Positions 1 to 32,296 of a DNA stretch of 33,442 nucleotides are shown piece by piece. Where the stretch lies: IMG/VR virus record IMGVR_UViG_3300025769_000442, positions 1 to 33,442 of that record, one strand, 5' to 3'. This DNA is from a virus. Under the pieces are notes generated by a model, which was not told where the DNA came from, made no database searches, and saw only the letters and a list, made by a program, of their open reading frames with translations. The stretch's first letter is position 1. Each line of letters starts with the position of its first letter. The position numbers and the translations under genes are program-made.

Positions 1-1046
1 TATTTTCTGGTGGTCAAGATTCAGGTGGTAGGCTTAACGTAATACAACAGATTACAATAGCTACTACAGGAAACGCTACAGATTTTGGCGATTTACTTTC
101 AGTTACTTCTTATAATGCATCTACTTGCTCTGGTAATCCAGCAGTACAAAACGAAACAGGTTTTGCTCCAGCAGCCATAGGGTTATTCGCAGGTGGTGAA
201 CCTTCTGCTGGTGGTAATCAAAGCACCATTGAATATATAGACATAGCCACAACAGGTAATTCATCTATGTTTGGTGATCTTACAGGAAAACGATATATAG
301 GTGGTTTAGGTTCTGGAATAGCCTCTGCAACTAGAGGTGTATTTGCAGGTGGACATACAGGTTCTGGAGCGGTTGATATTATAGAGTACGTTACTTTTTC
401 AACTAAATCTAAGGCAACAGACTTTGGCAATCTAACTAGTACCATGTATGCTATGGGAGCAGCTTCAAATAGCACAAGAGGAATAGCATTTGGAGGTCAT
501 AGTGGTTCCGCGACAACTAATGTAATTCAATATGTTACTATTGCCAGTGCTGGAAATGCAACAGACTTTGGCGATCTTGGTGGTACTAGTGAAGAAGGAA
601 TGGCATTAGCAAATACTACTAGAGGTGTGCATCATAGGGCTACTAGTTCAAATGTAATGGAGTATGTCACTATTGCCTCTACTGGAAACGCTACGGATTT
701 CGGTGATACTATTACAAATTTACAACGAGCAGGTGCAGTAGCTAGTAGTACTAGAGGTGTATTTGCTGGAGGAAAAAGTGATTTTTATACAACGCTAAAT
801 GTTATTCAATACATTACTATAGCTAGTGAAGGTAACTCAACAGATTTTGGAGACTTAGGAGCCACTATAGAAAGACTATCTGGTGTATCTTCTGGCACAA
901 GAGGGGTATTTAGTAGCAGTAATGCAGTAACAGGTATGGAGTATATTACTATTGCAAGTACAGGTAACGCTACTGATTTCGGAGATATGTCTCTAAACGC
1001 TGGTCATAGAATGACAGCATCAAGCGCACATGGAGGTATAGCATAA
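1..1046 (+). CDS. Kelch-like repeat tail protein, copy 1 (5' truncated)
   Basis: The reading frame is open from the window edge (codons in phase with base 3) to TAA at 1044-1046, so the N-terminus is missing. It is built of about 48-residue repeats. Each has a TRGVFAGG-type strand, a [IV][IQD][YF][VI]TIAST strand and a NATDFGDL turn. This spacing mimics kelch repeats (GG ... Y ... aromatic ... R), so a beta-propeller fold is inferred. One repeat is visible before a NETGFAPAAIGLFAGG linker and six follow it; the protein ends in SSAHGGIA, as in its two downstream paralogs. The stop overlaps the next start (TAATG). Likely a tail-tip or fibre-associated protein that touches the host surface, judged from its place with virion genes; binding function is not shown. 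Confidence is high for the gene, moderate for the fold. Confidence 0.85.
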   Translation, partial: FSGGQDSGGRLNVIQQITIATTGNATDFGDLLSVTSYNASTCSGNPAVQNETGFAPAAIGLFAGGEPSAGGNQSTIEYIDIATTGNSSMFGDLTGKRYIGGLGSGIASATRGVFAGGHTGSGAVDIIEYVTFSTKSKATDFGNLTSTMYAMGAASNSTRGIAFGGHSGSATTNVIQYVTIASAGNATDFGDLGGTSEEGMALANTTRGVHHRATSSNVMEYVTIASTGNATDFGDTITNLQRAGAVASSTRGVFAGGKSDFYTTLNVIQYITIASEGNSTDFGDLGATIERLSGVSSGTRGVFSSSNAVTGMEYITIASTGNATDFGDMSLNAGHRMTASSAHGGIA

Positions 1047-2914
1047 TGGCTCCATCATTCTCAGGTGTATGGAATATATCTACTCAATATCAGTATAGAA
1101 CTGGTTGGCCTATTGATGCTAATTTAGGAGCAAAAGGTTTTTTTGCAGGTGGTTCTGCTAATGCTGGAACCTCTAATGTTGTAGATGTTATTACGATAGA
1201 ATCTACTGGTGCTAATGCTACAGACTTTGGAAATTTAACAGCAACTAGAACAAAAGGTTTTGCTACTTCTAATAATACAAGAGGATTAATAACAGGTGGA
1301 GAAGGTGGTATTTCATCTGCTGCTAGTATTGATTATATAGAATTAGCCTCTGCTGGTAATGCTAGTGATTTTGGAGATTTGGCTAATCATGCTTCTTTTA
1401 GAGAGGATGGTTGTGCGTTTGCAGGTAATGTAAGAGCAATATTTGCAGGTGGAAACGACAATACAGGGGGAGGTGGTGTTGGTAAAGATTATATTGATTT
1501 TGTAACTATCCAAACACTAGGTAATGCGATAGATTTTGGTAATCTTACTGATGGCCTTAATGCAAATGCGGGATTTGCAAGTTCTACTAGAGGAATAAGT
1601 TCTGGAGGATACAATGATGCTGGTTCCAGTTCTAATATAATTCAATATGTTACGATAGCTACTACTGGAAATGCTACAGATTTCGGAGATCTTACTGCTG
1701 CAAGATATGCAACTACTGGTTGTGCAAGTGCAACAAGAGGTTTAACAGCAGGAGGTGTTGATGGTGGTAGCAATAACATAATTGACTATATTACAATAGC
1801 CTCAATTGGTAATGCTACAGATTTCGGGGATTTGACAAAAGCATCGTACTATAACACTGCCTGTTCAAATGCAACAAAAGGTCTGCTTACAGCAGGTACA
1901 AATAACTCCACTCAAGCTGTAGAATTTGTAACCCTAGCTACTACAAGCAATTCTGCTGACTTCGGAGATCTTAGTGTAGCTCGTGTATTTGCCGAGGGTT
2001 TTTCAGACAGTACACCTTCAAGTGCATTAGAGGCAGGTTTTCCTCCTGCTGCTATGGGATTGTTTGGTGGTGGTTTAGGTGACGGTAGTCCAAGATATTT
2101 GCCAACAATAACATATATAAATATTGCATCTACTGGAGACACAATACTTTTTGGTGATCTAAGTGTTGGTAGAGATTATATTTCAAGTGGTGGATTTGCT
2201 TCAACTACTAGAGGTTGTTTTGCAGGGGGATATAATGGAAGCCAAACTAATATAATAGATTTTGTAGCTTTTTCTACAAAAGGCAAGGCAACGGACTTTG
2301 GAAACTTAACAACAGATCCTTATGGTGGTGCTGCTGGATCTAATTCTACAAGAGGTATTAATGCAGGAGGAAATGCTACTAGTGGTGCAACTAATATAAT
2401 TGACTATGTTACTATAGCAAGTGCAGGTAATGCGACAGATTTTGGGGATCTGCTTGGAGCAAAACAGTATTTAACTACTGTTCAAAGTTCCACACGATTA
2501 GTCATTGGTGGTGGTTTTCAATCAAACGTAATTCAATATGTCACCATAGCCAGTACAGGAAATGCTACAGATTTTGGAGATTTAACTCAAGCTAGAGGCA
2601 ATTTATCAGGAGCAAGTTCTTCTACTAGAGGTGTGTTTGGTGGCGGTAATTCTAGCGGTACAGTTAATACTATTGATTACATTACTATCGCTTCTACTGG
2701 AAATGCTACAGATTTTGGAGATCTTACAGTAACAAAAGAGTTTGCTCCTGCTGTATCTTCTGGAACAAGGGCTGTATTTGGCTCGAAAGAAAACAGTAAT
2801 GTTATGGATTATGTAACTATTGCAAGTACAGGCAATGCTCAAGATTTTGGAGATATGTTACCTTATCATGTAAATGGTGGATCAGTATCAAACTCACATG
2901 GAGGTATAGCTTAA
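1046..2914 (+). CDS. Kelch-like repeat tail protein, copy 2
   Basis: 622 aa, complete. The N-terminal segment carries SGVWNISTQ and YRTGWP, a W/WP motif also present in copy 3 and often seen at the start of Gly-rich marine phage tail proteins. I count twelve DFG[DN]L-type turns, six before the AGFPPAAMGLFGGG linker (near residue 340) and six after it. This suggests two six-bladed propellers in one chain. The C-terminus SNSHGGIA looks like a partial strand that could close the second propeller. Start ATG overlaps the previous stop (TAATG) and its own stop overlaps the next ATG the same way, so the three are probably translationally coupled. Probable receptor-binding or tail appendage role by context; no catalytic motif is seen. 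Confidence 0.88.
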   Translation: MAPSFSGVWNISTQYQYRTGWPIDANLGAKGFFAGGSANAGTSNVVDVITIESTGANATDFGNLTATRTKGFATSNNTRGLITGGEGGISSAASIDYIELASAGNASDFGDLANHASFREDGCAFAGNVRAIFAGGNDNTGGGGVGKDYIDFVTIQTLGNAIDFGNLTDGLNANAGFASSTRGISSGGYNDAGSSSNIIQYVTIATTGNATDFGDLTAARYATTGCASATRGLTAGGVDGGSNNIIDYITIASIGNATDFGDLTKASYYNTACSNATKGLLTAGTNNSTQAVEFVTLATTSNSADFGDLSVARVFAEGFSDSTPSSALEAGFPPAAMGLFGGGLGDGSPRYLPTITYINIASTGDTILFGDLSVGRDYISSGGFASTTRGCFAGGYNGSQTNIIDFVAFSTKGKATDFGNLTTDPYGGAAGSNSTRGINAGGNATSGATNIIDYVTIASAGNATDFGDLLGAKQYLTTVQSSTRLVIGGGFQSNVIQYVTIASTGNATDFGDLTQARGNLSGASSSTRGVFGGGNSSGTVNTIDYITIASTGNATDFGDLTVTKEFAPAVSSGTRAVFGSKENSNVMDYVTIASTGNAQDFGDMLPYHVNGGSVSNSHGGIA

Positions 2915-4875
2915 TGACTCAAAGATACCTTGGTGGGATAATAACAGCAAACCCAACAGAGCCATCTAGTAATCTATCTACTGCATCTGCATCTGGTATG
3001 TGGACATTGCAGGAAGCATTGAGTTTCTATAGAGCAGGTGATTGGCCTGATCCTTCTAATACGCCTAGCAATGCTTTTTTTGTAGGAGGTTTTTCGGGAG
3101 CAGGTAATAGTACATCAGATGTAATACAAACAGTTGTTGTTGAATCGGCAGGTAATGCGACAGATTTTGGAGACTTAACCGCTGCTAAAAGTTCAGGTAG
3201 TAGTTTTTCTAATGATACTAGAGGCTTTTATGCAGGAGGAGGTAGTGGTAATGTAATTGAAAAATTTACTATGGCCTCTTCTGGTAACGCTACTGATTTT
3301 GGTGATTTAACAAATACACCTGATCTTGGTTCATCATTAGCTAACAATGTTAGAGGTATTTTTGCAGGAGGTAATGTTTCAGGTGCAGTAAATGTAATTC
3401 AATATATAACAATACCTACTGATGGTAACGCTATTGATTTTGGTGATCTTCTATCAACAACAAAAGATAGAGCAGGACAATCAGCTTCTACTACAAGAGG
3501 TATAATAGCAGGTGGTAATACAGGAAGTGTTAGTAATGTAATCCAGTATATTACCATTGCTTCTACAGCTAACGCTACAGATTTTGGTGATCTTACTCAA
3601 GCTAGAAACTATATGAGTTCAGGTGTCTCAGCGTCATCAACAAGAGGCTTATTTGCTAGTGGTTATAATAATAATATGACTTCTTATAATATTATAGATT
3701 ACATCACAATAGCAAGTACAGGAAATGCGACAGATTTTGGTGATATGTCTAGTCATGGTTATAGAGGAGGATCAACAAGTAATTCTACTAGGGCATTGTT
3801 TGCTGGTGGGTATAGAGGAGATGGTAACTTAGGTTCTGCTGCTGAAGGTGTATCTAATGTTATAGATTTTGTAACTATAGCTTCAACTGGTAATGCGTCA
3901 GATTTTGGTGATTTATTAGATGTATTTGGTGAAACTAGTGGTTGTTGTGCTGGTACACCAGCAGGGCAAAACGAAACTGGATTTCCTCCTGCTGCTATGG
4001 GTTTAATTGCTGGTGGTAATGAGCCTAATAACACAACTATTGCTTATATTAACATTGCAAGTACAAGTAATGAAATTCAGTTTGGAGATTTAACAAGCAG
4101 AAGATATAGATTATCAGGTGTAGCAAGTGCAACTCGTTGTGTTTGGTGGGGTGGTTATATTCAAGCAAATACAGCAGCAATGGAGTTCAGCACATTTAGC
4201 ACAAAAGGAATAGCACAAAACTTTGGAAATTTAACAAGTCTTAATAATAGCTCTTTAGGTTCTGTAAGTAATGGTACTAGGGGTGTATTAGCAAGAGGAG
4301 ATGTAGCTGGTAGTGAATCGAATATCATTGAATATATAACTATAGGTACAGAAGGAAACTCTACAGACTTTGGTGATTTAACTCTAGCAAGAAATTATGG
4401 TGGAGGTAATGGAAACTCTACTACTAGAGGATTATTTGCTGGTGGTTTTACAGGATCTGCATGGTCAAACGTTATTGATTATGTAACTATAGCTAGTACT
4501 GGAAACGCACAAGATTTTGGTGATATTAGCACTGCTACATATTACGCTGGTGGTGGGGGAAGTTCAACTAGAGCAGTTTACGGTGGTGGTGCAACTGCAT
4601 CTGCTGATGTAAATACAATAGAATATGTGACCATAGCCAGTACAGGTAATGCTACTGATTTTGGGGATCTTACTGTAGCTAGACAAACAGGTACAGGATC
4701 TATGTCTAGTTCTACTAGGTGTGTATTTAGAGGAGAAAACGATGTAGGCGATTCTCAAAACGTAATGGACTATATAACTATTGCTTCTACTGGAAACGCT
4801 ACAGATTTCGGAGACACTATTGCTAGTAGAGATCAGGCAGGTGGAGTTACCTCTAATTCACATGGTGGAATTTAA
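2914..4875 (+). CDS. Kelch-like repeat tail protein, copy 3
   Basis: 653 aa, complete. The architecture matches copy 2: an N-terminal SGMWTLQEA ... YRAGDWP segment, six kelch-like repeats, a NETGFPPAAMGLIAGG linker and six more repeats, ending SNSHGGI. Residues special to a given repeat position are kept between copies. For example the first repeat after the linker has YINIAST and a diverged turn (EIQFGDL), and the second has FSTKG and FGNL. This points to duplication of the whole gene. It is the last gene before a new promoter at 4883. Likely a host-contact tail component; a glycan or protein target cannot be told from sequence. Confidence 0.88.
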   Translation: MTQRYLGGIITANPTEPSSNLSTASASGMWTLQEALSFYRAGDWPDPSNTPSNAFFVGGFSGAGNSTSDVIQTVVVESAGNATDFGDLTAAKSSGSSFSNDTRGFYAGGGSGNVIEKFTMASSGNATDFGDLTNTPDLGSSLANNVRGIFAGGNVSGAVNVIQYITIPTDGNAIDFGDLLSTTKDRAGQSASTTRGIIAGGNTGSVSNVIQYITIASTANATDFGDLTQARNYMSSGVSASSTRGLFASGYNNNMTSYNIIDYITIASTGNATDFGDMSSHGYRGGSTSNSTRALFAGGYRGDGNLGSAAEGVSNVIDFVTIASTGNASDFGDLLDVFGETSGCCAGTPAGQNETGFPPAAMGLIAGGNEPNNTTIAYINIASTSNEIQFGDLTSRRYRLSGVASATRCVWWGGYIQANTAAMEFSTFSTKGIAQNFGNLTSLNNSSLGSVSNGTRGVLARGDVAGSESNIIEYITIGTEGNSTDFGDLTLARNYGGGNGNSTTRGLFAGGFTGSAWSNVIDYVTIASTGNAQDFGDISTATYYAGGGGSSTRAVYGGGATASADVNTIEYVTIASTGNATDFGDLTVARQTGTGSMSSSTRCVFRGENDVGDSQNVMDYITIASTGNATDFGDTIASRDQAGGVTSNSHGGI

Positions 4876-4960: not shown

Positions 4961-5791
4961 ATGACTAATACTAGTTTAGTAGCACATGAACTAAAAGTAA
5001 ACTTACCTGCTGATGTAAAGCCAGAATACAATACTATGTTGGCTAACATACAGGAGAAAATGCCAGCAGTAGCACAAGCTACTTCTAACTTTCACAAGTC
5101 GCACTCACAGTTCATGGGTGTTACATTAGACGTAACTGCAATCACGCCTATTCGATCTGTAAAGCACACACTAGCTGAGATAGATAGGACTAGAGGTGCA
5201 TTGCAAGAAGCATACATTGGTATGAAGAAGAAAGAGAATGAACTAAAGAAGAAAGAACGTGAATTAGAAACGTGTGAGGATGATCTAGATCGTGAACTAC
5301 TAGAGATAGAGATACTAGAGATAGAAGGTCATCTAGCAGGTACTAAGAATAGTGTACAGGGTGCAATCAGAAAGATGTCATTTTTTACTAACCAGTATGA
5401 CAACCTTATGAAGCATATAGGTAAAGAAGAACTGACTGAAGCTGACTACGAGTTAGAGGAAGCACGATACCATATTATGACCTGTATGAAACAGGCATTA
5501 AATAGTGCTAGACCTAGAGGTGGTACAATTGATGAGGGTAATATGATCTACCTATTTGACTTAGGTATCAATGCAGCCCAAGCACAAGCAGAAGTATTTG
5601 CGTACCTACAATGGGAAAATAAAATTATTAGTGAAGGTAAAGCCCCAACTCATGCTAATACAGTAGAATGGTTAGAGGCTTGTGCAGATAAGTGGGCAAG
5701 TTGTCCTGCTGATTTTGCAAACAGTCGTGGGTTTGATGTGTATGATCCATTGTCATTAACTAATGTACCACAATTAGAAGCAGCCGAATAG
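4961..5791 (+). CDS. Coiled-coil protein of unknown function, first gene after the promoter
   Basis: 276 aa. ATG follows a GGAG ribosome-binding site (ATGGAGTTTAAT). The middle third (about residues 80-140) is a charged K/E-rich helix with heptad-like leucines, probably a coiled coil; the rest looks alpha-helical and soluble. No enzyme motif, signal peptide or membrane segment is visible. Being the first gene of the operon led by the consensus promoter at 4883 suggests an abundant product, perhaps a virion or assembly (scaffold-like) protein. That role is inference only and I do not recognise the family. Confidence 0.8.
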   Translation: MTNTSLVAHELKVNLPADVKPEYNTMLANIQEKMPAVAQATSNFHKSHSQFMGVTLDVTAITPIRSVKHTLAEIDRTRGALQEAYIGMKKKENELKKKERELETCEDDLDRELLEIEILEIEGHLAGTKNSVQGAIRKMSFFTNQYDNLMKHIGKEELTEADYELEEARYHIMTCMKQALNSARPRGGTIDEGNMIYLFDLGINAAQAQAEVFAYLQWENKIISEGKAPTHANTVEWLEACADKWASCPADFANSRGFDVYDPLSLTNVPQLEAAE

Positions 5792-10353: not shown

Positions 10354-11477
10354 TGGCTATATCTGCTGGTATGAAAATTGGCATGGCTTCAGGGTTTATG
10401 GCGAGAAGAGAAAAGATAGAAGAACAAGAAAAAGAACAAACAGATGACTTTCGTGAAGCAACTAAGACTGCTAAGAAAAGAGCGCAAGGTATATTAGCTA
10501 AACAAAAAGCTACTAGAGAAGAAGATATACTTACAGGCCAAGGTCTAATACAAAGTCAGGAAGTAGCTCCTTTGATGAAAAACTTAAAAGTAAGTGATGA
10601 TTTGCTTGCAGCTATAGGTTTAGAACAAAAAGTTTTAGAAAGACAGGGATTTACTGCAAAAGAAATAGCTAAAGATCTTTCAAACAAAATAGTAGACATT
10701 GCTACAAAAATGGATAAGCAAAAACAAAAGAAGTTACAGGATGCTCAAAGACAAGAAGCAGAAGTAGAAAAAAGTAAAAGTACTCCTAGAAACTTTGCAA
10801 ACATTGTATCTGAGGCTTTCTCTGGTAGTGCTAGAGGAGAAGCAGCAAGAGATCTAATTAAACAAAGCATAACACCTGAAGAACAAAAGGTTATTGATAG
10901 TGACTTTACAACAGAAGAAAGAAAAGCTTCTTTAGGTTTAACTCCTGAAAGAACCATATCACCTATACAAAGAGAAAGAAGATATAAATTAGAATCAGCA
11001 AGATTAGCAGATAGTGAAAAAATAAAAAGTGAAAATCAAAATAATGCAATAGATTTACTACAAGTTATTATTACAACTCCAAAAGAAAGTTTAACAGAAG
11101 AAGAAATGAGTAATTCTTCAGAAACTATTTTTCAAATACAAGAAAAAGGAATTGAGTTAAACACTGAAAACGTACAAAAATTAACAGCAGATATTGCAAA
11201 ACGAGGAGTTAAACCAGTATTAATAGAAATAATGTCTATGGAACACAGTCTTCAAACAAAAGAATCTACTGGTGAAAAATCCTCTGAAGGTAGTAAGGAA
11301 GATAAAAAAGAAACAACTGATATAGATTCAAGTTTTAATCCAAGTATCTTAACACAAGAAAATGTAGTTAGATCAATATCAAAGGATGAGAAAATATATA
11401 AAGATCCTGATACAGGTATAAACTATAGAGTTAAAAGAAATTCTACTATGGATGTTATAGGAGCTAAAAAAATATAA
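10353..11477 (+). CDS. Helical, charged candidate virion protein
   Basis: 374 aa, almost entirely Lys/Glu/Gln-rich and predicted helical, with a short hydrophobic N-terminus (MAISAGMKIGMASGFM) and a long charged helix at about 20-150. No enzymatic motif. Both ends overlap neighbours by one base (TAATG), so it is coupled to the 171-aa gene before it and the 1697-aa gene after it. Size, composition and position fit an internal virion protein that works with the giant one; this is inferred. Confidence 0.8.
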   Translation: MAISAGMKIGMASGFMARREKIEEQEKEQTDDFREATKTAKKRAQGILAKQKATREEDILTGQGLIQSQEVAPLMKNLKVSDDLLAAIGLEQKVLERQGFTAKEIAKDLSNKIVDIATKMDKQKQKKLQDAQRQEAEVEKSKSTPRNFANIVSEAFSGSARGEAARDLIKQSITPEEQKVIDSDFTTEERKASLGLTPERTISPIQRERRYKLESARLADSEKIKSENQNNAIDLLQVIITTPKESLTEEEMSNSSETIFQIQEKGIELNTENVQKLTADIAKRGVKPVLIEIMSMEHSLQTKESTGEKSSEGSKEDKKETTDIDSSFNPSILTQENVVRSISKDEKIYKDPDTGINYRVKRNSTMDVIGAKKI

Positions 11478-14400
11478 TGGCTTTAACTAGAGAAGATATA
11501 TTAAAAGATAAAGAATTAGTATCTACATTATCAGATTACGGATTCAAACGTAATGGCGAAAGTTATAATACTAAAGAAGAAGCTATTGATGGTTTCTTAG
11601 AAGACTATCGTGCGCTTCAATCTAATACTGTGTCTGCTGGTAAGTTTATAAACTTTGTTAGTAATTTAAATGATGATGATCCTGAAGAAGCAGAGTTTAA
11701 ACAGAGACTAGGTAAACTGTATAAAAAAGTAGATGAAGAAGTAGATGAGGTATTTGGTGATACTAGTACAGGTCAAAAATTAGAAGCTGTAGGAGAATAC
11801 TTAAAATACACTGTAATAGATCCAATTAATCTACTAGGTCTTGGTGCAGGTAAATTAATAGCTGGTGCTGCTGGTAGGGCTGCATTAAAACCATTACTAA
11901 GTAGAGCATTTGCAAGTAAAGCAGGTGCTATAGCTACTCCTGCTATTACTGAAGCTGCTATAGGTGCAGGTCAGGAAGCTTTAGTACAAACAGCAGAAAA
12001 AGATATAGGTGCTAGAGAAGGTATGAGTGCAGCAGAAATAGGTACTGCTGGTGCATTAAGTGGTGTAGTTGGTGGAGTAGCAGGTGCAATAGGTTCTAAG
12101 TTTGCTGGTGGTAAAAGAATAGCAGAAACAGAAAAGAAAATAGCAGAGAACTTAGAAGATACTGTACAAGGTAGAGGTGCTAAACTAGATAACTTAAAAA
12201 ATGCAGTAGAAAAAACAGGAGATGATTACGAGGGATCGTATGTATTTCTAAAAGATAGCTCAGACATTGGTGATGAATATGACTCAATGGGTAAAGTTAT
12301 TGGATTTAATAAAGATAATCAAACAGCAACCATAGAGTTTATAGGTAAGAAAGATGAAACAGGAACTATAACAAGAGATATAGATCTTGGTGAAGCAAAA
12401 TTAGCTACAGAGAAACAAGTAAAAGACTCTACAGAAAGTTACATAAAAGAAAACAAAAAGTTTCTTGATAAGTCTGACCCTAACTTTGAAGAGTTTAAGA
12501 AAGCTCTTGGTGCAAATGGTATAGATTTAGATACTCCTAGATTTAAAAGAGTAACAACTCCAGAGTTTTCTAATGATATAAATCAAGCAGTTATGAGAGC
12601 TATTGATGAAAGTCCAAGACTTAAAGCAAGAATAGATCCTAGAAAAAGAGTAACAAGTCAGATAGCAGATTTAGTTAGAGATGATGAATTTGTATCTGCT
12701 AACCCAGATATAATGAATGCATTTATTAGAGAGGGTATTGATCCAGAAGATGTAGCCACTTTTATAATATCAGAGTCTAGTATAGTTGGACAGAAGTTAG
12801 GTGGTAAAGGATTAGTAGCTCAAGACATACAAAAGAAATTTATACCTGCATTACAGAAAGCAACTTCAGAGCTTACACCTGAACAACGTGGTCTGTTAGA
12901 TATAATAAAAGAAGAAAAACTAATAGAAGAACGCATGGCTAATAAGTTTAATGTGGGTGTAGATATATGGAGATCTTTCTTAATATCACAACCTGCTACC
13001 ACAATGCGTAATATCATAGGTTCTGCTTTACGTGTTCCTGGTCAAACTATTGAAGGACAACTAGATAATTTCTTTAAGAGATATGATACACAACTATTAG
13101 GATATGACACACAAGTAGATAGTAAAATGTTAAATCGTGGTGTTTTAGATTTAAGTAAAAATTTATTTAATCCAGAAGATGCTATACCTCTAGCTAGATT
13201 AGTTGCAAAAGATTTTTCTAAAGTAGACAAACTATTGTTTCAGGTGTTTGATGATTATATGCCTGTTAAAAGAGAAGAACTAGGATTCCTTGGTAAATCA
13301 CTTAGTACTGCATCTAACTATCTAAATGTATTAAACAGACAACAAGATAGGGCAATTAAATCTGCAAGTTTTCTAAGTGAGTTAGATGCTCAAATAAAAA
13401 CTGCTCGTAATAGAGGTATAATAACTGACACTAATGTATCAAGTATAGATGATGTTTTACAACAAAATAAACTAAATTTATTAAATGATGAGATGGTAAG
13501 TAAAGCATTAGACTTTGCTTATAAGATGACGTATCAAACTAAACGTGCAGGAGATGATTTAGCTTTTGGTGGAGCATTAGTAAATAACGTACAAAAAAGT
13601 TTAAACAATAACTCTGTATTAAAAACAGTTATACCTTTCCCTAACTTTTTAATTAACTCTTTAGTCTATACTACTAATCGTGCTGGATTTGGTGCTATTA
13701 AGATGGCTAAATCTGGTAGACAGTTAATGAAAAGAAATGTAGATGATGCTGTAAAAAATAGGGCAGAGCTAAATAAAGCTCAAGCAGAGTTTGAACAATT
13801 AATGCAAAATCCTAAAGCTGCTGATCCTACAAGAAAAGCACAATTAGAAGATACTATACAGAAGTTAAGTAAAGATTTTGCAGAAGCTGAAAGAAGTTTA
13901 GTTAATCTTAAACGAGGTATGACAGAAACCATAGAAGGTGCAGGCTTACTTTCAGCAGCATTAGCTATGCGTTCTCAGTTAGGTGGTTCTGAGTGGTATT
14001 TAATTAAAGATGGAGAAGGACAAGAGAGAGACTTTAGACCTATCTTTCCTTTAACTCCTTTCTTATTCTTTGCTGATCTAATATTAAAATCATTTAAAGA
14101 TGAACCTATTACTCAAGAATATGTCATAGGTGGTTCAGAAGCTGTATTAGGTGTTACAGTTAGAGCAGGTGCATTGGGTAACTTTGCACGTAATGGATAT
14201 CAAAGATTATCTAATATGGATAATGATCCATTAGCAGCTAAAGACTTTGGTAAATCACTTGGTAGTGTTTTAGGATACTTCCTTGGTGGATATGCAACTC
14301 CTACAAGACCTATTCAAGATCTTATTCAATCTGCTACAGGCAGTGAACAAATTGAAAGAAGAATGCAGAAGAATGCATTTGGAATAGATTTTGAAATAGA

Positions 14401-16570
14401 AGCTCCTGTATTTCAAGGGATGGTAGATGAGGTAGCAAAGAATGTATTTAGAGGTACGCCTTTTGAGAAAGCTGTATTCGCTGATACACCTGAATTTATA
14501 TCAGGAACTTCTGAACAAACACCTAGACCTGTAGATGCACCTATACAGAAACAATTCTCAGGTGCAACAGTAGCTCCAAGAAAAACTGTTGTAGGGGAAG
14601 AGTTATCTAAGTTAGGAATACCAGAATATAAAACTGGAGCAGGTACAAGGGTTCCAGAATATAACTATGCATACAAAAAGGCATTAGGTGAAATATCTAC
14701 AAAGATAGTAGAACCATTTTTAAATGATCCAGAGTATTTTAATAAACCTCCTAAAGAAAAACGTAGGATATTAGATAATATCTTTTTTGGTAAGAGTTCA
14801 GCAAATGTTCCTCCTAGACTTTTAAAAGCATTAAGAGTTGATAGACTTGATAAAACATTTAATAATGTAAGACAATTAGCAAATGCTATGGTTAAAGCAG
14901 CAAGACCTAACCTGCATTACTTAGCTAATTTTAGAAAAGGTGTATCATCTGATGATTTTTCTGATGCTGCTGAAATATACAAACAAAGATACCCACAAGA
15001 AAATTTAGATAATATATTAACATATGTAGATGAACAAAAAAATAAAGAAGCTTCAGATAAACAAAAGGCTATATTAGAAGAAATAAAATCAATTGCTACT
15101 AAAAGAGGCTCATTAGGTCAAAGAGATTTTACTACATTACAAAAAACTGCTAGAAGATACAACATGAAAACATCTTCAGGTGTAGATGATTTGAAGTTTG
15201 CTGAAGGTGGTTTCGTAGAGGATATTGATCCTGAGTTTGTTTCTGATGAGACTACTGAGTTTTCTGATATTGATCCTGAGTTTGTTCAAGAATATAAAGT
15301 TGAAGATCAAATGGATGAATTAGGATTAGCTCCAGAAGGTAGATTAATTCCTAGATCATCTAATAAAGTACCTCTTACAACTAAAGATTCTAAATCAGTA
15401 ACAGAAGAAGAAGTTAAAAATTTAGCTAATACATTAACTCAAATTGGTGTGGATATGTCTCCAGTGGGAACATATGAAGCAATAAAAAATTTACCTCAAA
15501 ATGTAAAAGATTCTGTAAATGAATATGATAAAGGTAATATAGGTAAGGCTGCATTATTAATGGTATTAGGAACTGCTGGAGCAATACCAGGAATGCCTAG
15601 TAACGTAATTGGTAAAGCTGTTAAAGGTAAGCCTGTTAAGGGTAAAGTAATATCTGCTGACGAGGTAGTTGCAGATGATGCAACAAAAACCTATGCTAAA
15701 AGTATAGAAGATGCAGATAGATTTAATAATGTCGAAGATTGGCAAGCTGAAGTTAAAGTTATTAAAAAAAGTAATAATATTGATCTTAGTGTAAGAACAC
15801 CTGAATTAGAAGCATCAGCTAAAAAACTTATTAATAAAGAAATTCCTAGAGAAGAACATTTACGTTCTATAGATAAATATAAACCTGTACGAGGTTTTGA
15901 TGAGTTACCCAGACAACCTACAGATAAAGCAGTGGTTTTTGCATTAAACAATTCTCAAAGAGAAAAAGGTTTATTTCAGTTACCTGAAGAGGTTACTAAA
16001 AAACTTAATGTAAAAAGATCACCATTAAAAGTAGGAGATCCTGTGCAGGGTAGATTAGATATTCCTGCTTATCTAGACCATGATACTTGGATTGTAACAC
16101 TGCTTAGTCCTCAAATAAAAAATGCAAAAGGAAACAGAACATCAATATATGGTAAAGCTATACATTATGCACCAGATTCTAAAAAAGGACACGTTGAATT
16201 TAAGGCTGCAGAAGGGCTTGGACAAAAAATTGCAACAGGACATAATAAAACACCTTATGCTACTGTTATGGGTACAGTAAAAGATTTAGATTCTGAAAGA
16301 ATTAGAAAAAAAGCTAGTGAGATATTAAATGATCCTGAGTGGGTTCAACTATCTTTTGATCCTAGAAGACAAACTAGTTTCTATGTTAGAAAAGGTGCAG
16401 ATGGATTACCTGTTCATACACCTATTGCATCAGCAGATGAAGTAATACAAATAGGACCACTAGTATTGGCAAAAAATGCTGTAGCAAAAACAAAAAAAGA
16501 TGGTACACCTTGGACTGATTTAAACAGAGGTGGTTCTATAAATAGACAAATGGTAGCATTAGGATTATAA
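11477..16570 (+). CDS. Giant candidate ejection / internal virion protein (1697 aa)
   Basis: The largest gene in the window. Order seen: a charged N-terminus; a Gly/Ala-rich hydrophobic region at about residues 113-211 that could insert in a membrane; a beta-rich insert near 255-315 (EGSYVFLKDSSD); a long mixed helical core with hydrophobic stretches near 720-760 and 855-905; a FAEGGFVEDIDPEFV linker in which IDPEFV is repeated 15 residues later (residues 1249 and 1264); and a C-terminal domain. That domain has YIRK-like basic patches and, near 1650, SADEVIQIGPLVLAKN, a signature I associate with the C-termini of very large polyvalent phage and prophage proteins. No lysozyme or transglycosylase motif was identified. 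By size and position it parallels T7 gp16, but homology is not shown. Confidence 0.85.
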   Translation: MALTREDILKDKELVSTLSDYGFKRNGESYNTKEEAIDGFLEDYRALQSNTVSAGKFINFVSNLNDDDPEEAEFKQRLGKLYKKVDEEVDEVFGDTSTGQKLEAVGEYLKYTVIDPINLLGLGAGKLIAGAAGRAALKPLLSRAFASKAGAIATPAITEAAIGAGQEALVQTAEKDIGAREGMSAAEIGTAGALSGVVGGVAGAIGSKFAGGKRIAETEKKIAENLEDTVQGRGAKLDNLKNAVEKTGDDYEGSYVFLKDSSDIGDEYDSMGKVIGFNKDNQTATIEFIGKKDETGTITRDIDLGEAKLATEKQVKDSTESYIKENKKFLDKSDPNFEEFKKALGANGIDLDTPRFKRVTTPEFSNDINQAVMRAIDESPRLKARIDPRKRVTSQIADLVRDDEFVSANPDIMNAFIREGIDPEDVATFIISESSIVGQKLGGKGLVAQDIQKKFIPALQKATSELTPEQRGLLDIIKEEKLIEERMANKFNVGVDIWRSFLISQPATTMRNIIGSALRVPGQTIEGQLDNFFKRYDTQLLGYDTQVDSKMLNRGVLDLSKNLFNPEDAIPLARLVAKDFSKVDKLLFQVFDDYMPVKREELGFLGKSLSTASNYLNVLNRQQDRAIKSASFLSELDAQIKTARNRGIITDTNVSSIDDVLQQNKLNLLNDEMVSKALDFAYKMTYQTKRAGDDLAFGGALVNNVQKSLNNNSVLKTVIPFPNFLINSLVYTTNRAGFGAIKMAKSGRQLMKRNVDDAVKNRAELNKAQAEFEQLMQNPKAADPTRKAQLEDTIQKLSKDFAEAERSLVNLKRGMTETIEGAGLLSAALAMRSQLGGSEWYLIKDGEGQERDFRPIFPLTPFLFFADLILKSFKDEPITQEYVIGGSEAVLGVTVRAGALGNFARNGYQRLSNMDNDPLAAKDFGKSLGSVLGYFLGGYATPTRPIQDLIQSATGSEQIERRMQKNAFGIDFEIEAPVFQGMVDEVAKNVFRGTPFEKAVFADTPEFISGTSEQTPRPVDAPIQKQFSGATVAPRKTVVGEELSKLGIPEYKTGAGTRVPEYNYAYKKALGEISTKIVEPFLNDPEYFNKPPKEKRRILDNIFFGKSSANVPPRLLKALRVDRLDKTFNNVRQLANAMVKAARPNLHYLANFRKGVSSDDFSDAAEIYKQRYPQENLDNILTYVDEQKNKEASDKQKAILEEIKSIATKRGSLGQRDFTTLQKTARRYNMKTSSGVDDLKFAEGGFVEDIDPEFVSDETTEFSDIDPEFVQEYKVEDQMDELGLAPEGRLIPRSSNKVPLTTKDSKSVTEEEVKNLANTLTQIGVDMSPVGTYEAIKNLPQNVKDSVNEYDKGNIGKAALLMVLGTAGAIPGMPSNVIGKAVKGKPVKGKVISADEVVADDATKTYAKSIEDADRFNNVEDWQAEVKVIKKSNNIDLSVRTPELEASAKKLINKEIPREEHLRSIDKYKPVRGFDELPRQPTDKAVVFALNNSQREKGLFQLPEEVTKKLNVKRSPLKVGDPVQGRLDIPAYLDHDTWIVTLLSPQIKNAKGNRTSIYGKAIHYAPDSKKGHVEFKAAEGLGQKIATGHNKTPYATVMGTVKDLDSERIRKKASEILNDPEWVQLSFDPRRQTSFYVRKGADGLPVHTPIASADEVIQIGPLVLAKNAVAKTKKDGTPWTDLNRGGSINRQMVALGL

Positions 16571-31386: not shown

Positions 31387-31467
31387 TCATCTAGATATTA
31401 CTATGCTCATTATGGCGATAACAATAAACACTGTTATCATTATCGCCGTTACTACTATCTCAAACAT
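31387..31467 (-). CDS. 26-aa single-TM micro-protein
   Basis: ATG at 31467 overlaps the stop of the gp88-like gene; TGA at 31387-31389. MFEIVVTAIMITVFIVIAIM then SIVISR is an almost pure membrane helix. It fills an otherwise empty gap of about 90 nt. Coding is supported by stop-start overlap and composition only. Confidence 0.5.
   Translation of the reverse strand: MFEIVVTAIMITVFIVIAIMSIVISR
31414..31447. other. Inverted repeat inside the 26-aa ORF
   Basis: GGCGATAA (31414-31421) and TTATCGCC (31440-31447) pair perfectly around 18 nt. An alternative inner stem, GATAACA with TGTTATC, has an 8-nt loop. It could be an RNA hairpin separating the gp88-like gene from the small genes, or a protein-binding site. 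Confidence 0.4.
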
Positions 31468-32296
31468 TTACAACAAAACCTGTTGTATCGGTGTTACCTG
31501 TTTTCTTTTCACGCAATCCCACTATCACGCCCCGATCATCTAAGAACCTGTTATCAGTTAGATCGCCGTCTATAACACGATGACCTAGATACTTGATAGG
31601 CAAGTCTTGACCCTTTTTAGTATCGAACACTACAGCCACGTTAACGCCCGATTTAATAGCGTCGTGTATAGTATTATCTGTAGTATCTTCAGTACGCGAT
31701 AGAGTAACACTATAACGCCCGATAAGATTAAGCTTAGTATGCTTAATTACTTTTGTGTAATCATAGATTGCATCTAATCCCATATCCCATAATTTAGGAA
31801 ACAAGACATAGAAATTGATATCACTAATTACATTAGGACGAAATGCGGTCTTTGCATGAAGTCTTAAAGCTTTTCTTTTCATTGCTTCAATCTCTTTTAA
31901 AGCTTGCGCTATGAATTGATCACGATAATCAAACCATAGAATGGTACGAGTGATGCGAGCAATTAATACCGTATGGTTTCCATCGTGAACCATATGTCTT
32001 TGACCATGACCAGAAAACATTAGACAAGCTTTTGCACATCCAAGACTAGCACCAGCACACGTGTTATATCCTGATACCCATGTAGGTGCTAATTGAAATC
32101 CTGCTGTAAGATATTTGATATCATCGCTATGCTTTTCTAACTTGGTATTAGTCGTGACAAGCTTAGGCAATTTAGACCAATTAAGAGATCCGTCTTTATT
32201 GGTAGCTAATGCAATCTTCATTTTTGCACTATGGCGGGATTTAATTACTAGCTTATCTTCTTCGGTGATTGTCTTGATTTTGTTTGATATAGTCAT
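31460..32296 (-). CDS. gp88-like Cys-motif protein of unknown function
   Basis: 278 aa. A central cysteine motif TCAGASLGCAKACLMFSGHG (Cys80, Cys87, Cys91) followed by His-rich residues (GQRHMVHDGNH) resembles a phage family I recall as gp88-like (mycobacteriophage gene 88). The cysteines may hold a metal or Fe-S centre. The function of that family is not established. The C-terminal part is alpha/beta with DKKG-like turns and ends GFVVNV. AGGAGAAC precedes ATG. It is paired with the cytosine methyltransferase and, like it, looks CpG-richer than the rest of the arm. Confidence 0.75.
   Translation of the reverse strand: MTISNKIKTITEEDKLVIKSRHSAKMKIALATNKDGSLNWSKLPKLVTTNTKLEKHSDDIKYLTAGFQLAPTWVSGYNTCAGASLGCAKACLMFSGHGQRHMVHDGNHTVLIARITRTILWFDYRDQFIAQALKEIEAMKRKALRLHAKTAFRPNVISDINFYVLFPKLWDMGLDAIYDYTKVIKHTKLNLIGRYSVTLSRTEDTTDNTIHDAIKSGVNVAVVFDTKKGQDLPIKYLGHRVIDGDLTDNRFLDDRGVIVGLREKKTGNTDTTGFVVNV

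Follow-up and report, generated by a model that had tools for sequence, protein, structure and literature searches.

The first 4,875 nucleotides of the window, a term used here for the whole analysed stretch of viral DNA (33,442 nucleotides), very probably encode a three-member tail-fibre or receptor-binding cassette, in which the proteins A, B and C combine slot-specific anchors with exchangeable six-bladed kelch-type rings. Judged by its genes, the window is an HMO-2011-type podovirus, a representative of an abundant ocean virus type. Such viruses are recognised by homologous polymerase, coat and tail genes in a conserved order. Aligned over its length, the window polymerase shares 37-41% identity with the polymerases of HMO-2011, the Roseobacter CRP phages and Pelagibacter phage HTVC033P. 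Since the window does not contain the coat and tail genes, these were read in the relative L006, where the coat protein is 59-66% identical to that of the HMO-2011 group and the tail genes correspond and follow in a similar order. All three gene sets were found in this way, the coat and tail genes via L006.

Two further genes of the window were noted. The protein encoded at 31460-32296 on the minus strand matches Pfam GP88 (PF17338, E 6e-29). For the protein of 1697 aa encoded at 11477-16570 on the plus strand, Pfam gave nothing below E 0.1 and PHROGs nothing below E 0.01; it shows partial similarity only, to hypothetical proteins of Roseobacter CRP phages, and is perhaps an internal virion protein.

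Repeat number and fold of the rings

All genes of the cassette are located on the plus strand. Gene A (3-1046) is devoid of a start, its 5' end being cut by the contig, and comprises the end of ring 1, the inter-ring linker GFAPAAIG (159-182) and the whole of ring 2, with six blades by repeat count (183-1043). Gene B (1046-2914) encodes the slot-2 twin six-bladed propeller protein of 622 aa, composed of an N-terminal anchor, MAPSFSGVWNISTQYQYRTGWP... (1046-1123), a ring 1 of six blades (1133-2035) and a ring 2 predicted to be six-bladed and kelch-type (2036-2911), with the linker GFPPAAMG at 2036-2059. Gene C (2914-4875), of 653 aa and placed in slot 3, consists of an anchor, MTQRYLGGIITANPTEPSSN...SGMWTLQEALSFYRAGDWP (2914-3068), and 12 repeats, with the linker GFPPAAMG at 3979-4002. 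The end of the cassette is marked by a conserved plus-strand gene of 276 aa (4961-5791) belonging to phrog_1409, where no function is assigned; its DNA is about 93% identical in several relatives.

The first-pass annotation had counted exactly 12 FG turns in each complete gene, six on either side of the linker, and six turns behind the linker of the partial gene. Both counts were reproduced with the turn taken as FG[DN], which must be its meaning, because plain FG dipeptides are more numerous (15 in B, 13 in C). In B the FG[DN] turns lie at residues 61, 109, 164, 213, 260 and 306, before the linker at 331, and at 369, 418, 466, 510, 557 and 601 behind it; C has six on either side of its linker at residue 356, and the 5'-cut gene A has one before and six after GFAPAAIG. 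In alignment, A and C are 51-56% identical to B.

A 48-position repeat profile, built from family members, was run on all open reading frames (ORFs) of the window and of the fetched relatives, some of which came from a DNA-pattern scan of the genome collection. Among 297 complete non-redundant family ORFs, six repeats are present in 219, twelve in 46 and eighteen in one; after filling gaps from degenerate repeats, these figures become 223, 52 and one. The exceptions are mostly broken neighbouring ORF pairs summing to 6 or 12, or cases of one over-degenerate repeat. In all 46 of the twelve-repeat ORFs, repeats 6 and 7 are set 57-76 aa apart, compared with 48 ± 2 aa elsewhere. The repeat count is tied to multiples of six, and this is not due to chance.

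Several unusual arrangements were noted. The eighteen repeats lie in an ORF of 919 aa (L149:4307-7066, minus strand) and correspond to three rings per chain. Split ring genes, visible as two abutting ORFs whose repeats sum to six (1+5 or 2+4), are located at L008:9501-10711, L077:2817-4027 and L028:5415-6377, and partly visible in L009 and L027; for the slot-1 ring gene, split in several related contigs, a frameshift, an assembly error and a real split are the candidates. In L013, L045, L044 and L029 (L013, L045 and L029 being part of the records G001, G002 and G003), single-ring genes are arrayed head to tail, often together with LamG domains; with about 8 to 13 genes or more in the stretch covered, these sets are larger than the three slots of the window. 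Ring arrays are also present in the GTDB genome contigs L053, L054, L056 and L060, labelled Pirellulales, Porticoccaceae and Epulopiscium. L053 has all three slots and, over one ring, its DNA is 87% identical to that of the viral contig L008, so it is probably phage DNA binned with bacteria; as strong genome-collection matches of this kind look like misbinned phage contigs, no host is claimed from them.

The earlier proposal that each chain is a twin six-bladed propeller is supported by a confident model for ring 2 of B, by the repeat counts in sixes and, for A and C, by their alignment to B. The AlphaFold2 model of this ring (2036-2911, alignment of 106 rows) reached a pLDDT of 95.6 and a pTM of 0.93. 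In the PDB it is matched best by six-bladed kelch domains, those of KLHL12 (6v7o: E 3.6e-19, TM 0.83/0.85), K13, KLHL3, KLHL17 and KEAP1, and by the designed SAKe6 propellers, so that the outcome contrary to the proposal, a fold without a closed six-bladed ring, did not occur. Among predicted viral proteins (BFVD), the best matches are an uncultured phage protein (39% identity), S-SKS1, and BcepSaruman together with other phage kelch-motif proteins. The full-length model of B, obtained from 19 aligned rows, is of moderate quality (pLDDT 72, pTM 0.50) and does not fix how the two rings sit relative to each other; in the PDB it matches single kelch rings, with whole-length alignments to the tandem propellers of LRP/megalin. 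From the alignment to B, two rings would be expected in C, and the cut-off remainder of ring 1 in A. An integrin-type FG-GAP propeller was also considered and rejected, as Pfam scans revealed no FG-GAP family and kelch domains are the best structural matches.

The first repeat of a ring starts at strand B, and a strand A motif (SNxHGG) is found at the end of the chain; from this, blade 1 would be closed by both chain ends. The C-terminal strand A would thereby join the N-terminal strands B-D and complete blade 1, and since it is completed by the ring's own chain ends, every ring would represent a self-contained cassette.

In canonical kelch repeats, a Gly-Gly doublet is followed by a tyrosine and a tryptophan six residues apart. 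The doublet is retained over the 2406 repeats of the family at profile positions 21-22 (G 82% and G 89%), where it ends a hydrophobic strand. The aromatic pair consists of Tyr/Phe at position 34 and Phe (96%) at position 46, with eleven residues between them, and Trp makes up about 1%; in the 48-position profile, the Phe that stands in for the kelch Trp precedes an invariant Gly. The idea of a degenerate kelch motif with FG instead of Trp is thus correct as regards the residue, but the aromatic spacing is unlike that of canonical kelch repeats. The other kelch hallmark, repeats of about 44-56 residues forming the four-stranded blades of a closed propeller, is found in both the 48 ± 2 aa spacing and the predicted fold. 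The profile search suggested as a check did not recognise the repeats: with the Pfam Kelch models, neither A, B and C nor 43 relatives were matched at E ≤ 1, and PF01344 gave no match over the window even at E ≤ 10. For this reason the family is placed outside the Pfam Kelch families, in spite of its kelch-type fold. Searches of Pfam, PHROGs and PDB sequences indicated no functional family for the rings, and fold comparison alone was informative.

Slots, anchors and ring exchange

In the HMO-2011-like relatives, ring genes are found at up to three positions in a fixed order, each with its own N-terminus: (i) an fn3-type anchor in slot 1; (ii) MAPS[FY]SGVWNISTQYQY in slot 2; (iii) MTQRYLGGIITANPTEPSSN... 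in slot 3, followed by the 276-aa gene. The slot-2 anchor, as represented by B, is conserved at the DNA level in about 14 loci. Gene A is probably the slot-1 gene, which possesses the fn3-type tail-fibre anchor in relatives, because it precedes the slot-2 gene, an order also seen in L006, L036 and L037; as the gene is cut by the contig, we only infer slot 1 of the window. In L006 and L036, a tail protein gene of 840-916 aa neighbours the cassette on its upstream side. One and the same slot carries a single ring in some phages and two rings in others.

The anchors are not restricted to rings. The slot-3 anchor bears a non-propeller domain in L005, L006, L007 and L011, and in L005, L007 and L011 this cargo is the tail-fibre domain DUF7483; in L005 and L011 it matches the ‘tail fiber protein’ family phrog_24898 (as low as 7e-71) as well as a virion structural family. 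Phage DSL-LC04 has the slot-3 anchor in a concanavalin-like lectin gene, and a slot-2-type anchor is joined to a Gly-rich domain in L148. The slot-1 gene matches the ‘tail fiber protein’ family phrog_30742 in L006 (1.2e-19) and L005 (7e-21). The rings of further relatives stand behind LamG or fn3 domains and, in one member, behind an Mtd_N-like (major tropism determinant) domain. Both parts of a modular receptor-binding protein, the conserved N-terminal anchor and the exchangeable C-terminal module, are found in this family. Three slots with distinct anchors, and tail-fibre cargo in the same slot, also lend circumstantial support to the earlier suggestion that A, B and C together form one host-contact structure. 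In HMO-2011, what follows the coat, tail and amidase genes carries mainly tail fiber annotations and includes a C1q-domain gene, and the corresponding region of CRP-738 opens with a putative tail fiber protein.

The two rings of B differ sharply in their relationship to the same relatives. Compared to L005 and L006, protein identity is 90-91% for ring 1 and 52-54% for ring 2; at the DNA level, ring 1 is 82-100% identical by 100-nt bin, and the identity drops from about 90% to 50-60% at the linker, which marks an exchange boundary. In L036, the ring-1 end of the slot-3 gene matches the first 157 nucleotides of the window at 98.7% identity, and this block likewise stops at the linker. The DNA of gene starts is conserved in 8-15 loci, whereas most stretches inside the rings match 0-3 loci. 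In comparisons of twin-ring genes from different contigs, 18 of 23 internal block ends, which are not fully independent as several come from one phage lineage, fall within 60 nt of a ring boundary, a result reached by none of 20,000 random placements. Related phages thus appear, from these sequence comparisons, to swap whole rings at fixed mounting points, and homologous recombination is the presumed process, with the direction of exchange equally presumptive.

Variable face and function of the rings

The most variable positions over the 2406 repeats are the DA segment (6-8) and the BC loop (23-29), which has insertions in one repeat out of three; conservation is seen in the CD hairpin and the AB turn. 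In six ortholog or paralog pairs, the BC loops are 13-53% identical as against 71-88% for the CD hairpins. The BC and DA loops of kelch domains share one face, which forms the substrate pocket in KEAP1 and KLHL3, and the AB and CD loops constitute the opposite face (PMC6650413). In the ring family it is this pocket face that varies, as would suit contact with changing host surfaces. Part of the loop variability could come from relaxed constraint instead of selection.

In the mechanism proposed for the cassette, the slot-specific N-terminal anchor would fix each protein to the virion tail, and the C-terminal module would consist of one or two closed, exchangeable six-bladed kelch-type propellers. 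The BC and DA loops, most variable in sequence and length, would most likely contact a glycan or protein of the host surface, and the conserved AB and CD turns (STRG; STGNATDFG) would occupy the opposite face. By recombining whole rings at the conserved anchor and linker DNA, related phages would re-tool the contact surface and change its specificity with the mounting point kept. Virion location, host binding and host range as the selective force are all presumptive parts of this mechanism.

The rings might instead decorate the virion, studding the capsid or tail and binding abundant ligands such as particle glycans or cell debris, with no part in deciding the host range. The varied N-terminal anchors would suit such a role, as would the very long ring-gene arrays of L013, L045 and L029, which exceed what one receptor would seem to need; the mature virion of phage CBB contains a kelch protein whose role is not known, according to the available text of its description (PMC5259590). 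This explanation is nevertheless unlikely, given the tail-fibre family N-termini of slot-1 proteins, a slot-3 anchor common to tail-fibre-type cargo, and a locus that lies behind the tail genes, where HMO-2011 has its tail-fibre region. Propeller enzymes occur in phage tailspikes and a location at the host surface is plausible, so the rings might also act as sialidase- or lyase-like depolymerases cutting a host surface glycan. We regard this as very unlikely: the structures matched best are kelch domains that bind and are not enzymes, none of the enzyme families in Pfam gave a convincing match to the rings, and the loops are most variable where an active site would need conservation. A solenoid or beta-helix, which stacked tandem repeats of some 48 residues might in principle form, can be dismissed almost with certainty, since the rule of six, twelve and eighteen is not expected of a solenoid and the very confident ring model matches closed six-bladed propellers.

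The tail-fibre or receptor-binding cassette, as the preferred reading, can be extended with some reserve into a wider picture. Marine phages would probably possess three-position tail fibres with interchangeable single, double or triple ring tips, swapped whole by recombination at the gene starts and the linker, and in some relatives this system would run to an array of a dozen ring genes or more. The result would be a combinatorial form of host recognition that protein family searches miss because the repeats are without the kelch Trp. Swapping of whole rings at fixed mounting points is what is expected of parts that grip a bacterial host. The ring profile, the fixed anchors and the clean exchange points would let candidate host-recognition modules be read from metagenomes, and these could then be tested ring by ring. 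The family also provides a natural example of a closed propeller ring as the unit of exchange and a cautionary case of an abundant fold unseen by standard family models.

Relation to known systems

A description of the ring family was not found in the literature searched, most subscription papers being outside its reach, and this does not prove absence. Among HMO-2011-type isolates (HMO-2011, CRP-1/2/3, CRP-738 and HTVC033P), other genes occupy the ring locus, and tblastn with B gave no propeller relative. When B and a single-ring relative were compared by tblastn with isolate phages, Synechococcus phage S-SKS1 was the sole match. This nearest annotated isolate (BFVD M4QT40; record 202-206 kb) shares the propeller fold at 27% identity, but it is a large cyanophage, and its repeats have no FG turn in the repeat-profile scan. 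A propeller-like sequence resembling B was also noted in S-SKS1 at L035:5062-5682, where no gene is annotated.

The kelch propellers KLHL12, KEAP1, Plasmodium K13 and SAKe6 have in common with the rings six four-stranded blades, the Gly-Gly doublet, a blade 1 closed by the chain ends, and BC and DA loops on one face. The differences relate to the Trp and the aromatic pair six residues apart in those proteins, as opposed to Phe-Gly and a distance of eleven here, to the mounting of the present rings on phage anchors, and to the Pfam Kelch models, which recognise no ring of this family. The loop face is conserved in K13 and variable in the ring family.

Kelch-like proteins from giant phages and others (CBB_550/552/554, BcepSaruman and a PhiPA3 virion protein) resemble the family in propeller fold and, as far as the available descriptions go, in clustered genes; CBB_552 has been detected in the CBB virion (PMC5259590). 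They differ in being only 11-17% identical to ring 2 of B and in being called kelch by existing models, and the available text on the CBB kelch proteins does not describe ring exchange on shared anchors (PMC5259590).

Klebsiella and E. coli tailspikes, in the available parts of their descriptions, join a conserved N-terminal anchor to a C-terminal module exchanged horizontally (PMC8262889, PMC10408124). In the ring family, by contrast, no enzyme domain was recognised, the unit of exchange is the propeller ring, and a second exchange point lies between the two rings of a chain. Phage kelch-like proteins, one of them in the CBB virion (PMC5259590), and modular receptor-binding proteins of anchor and tip (PMC8262889) are thus already known from these sources. 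What appears to be new is a large, profile-invisible family of kelch-type proteins in marine phages, with ring-wise exchange, one to three rings per chain and a three-slot layout.
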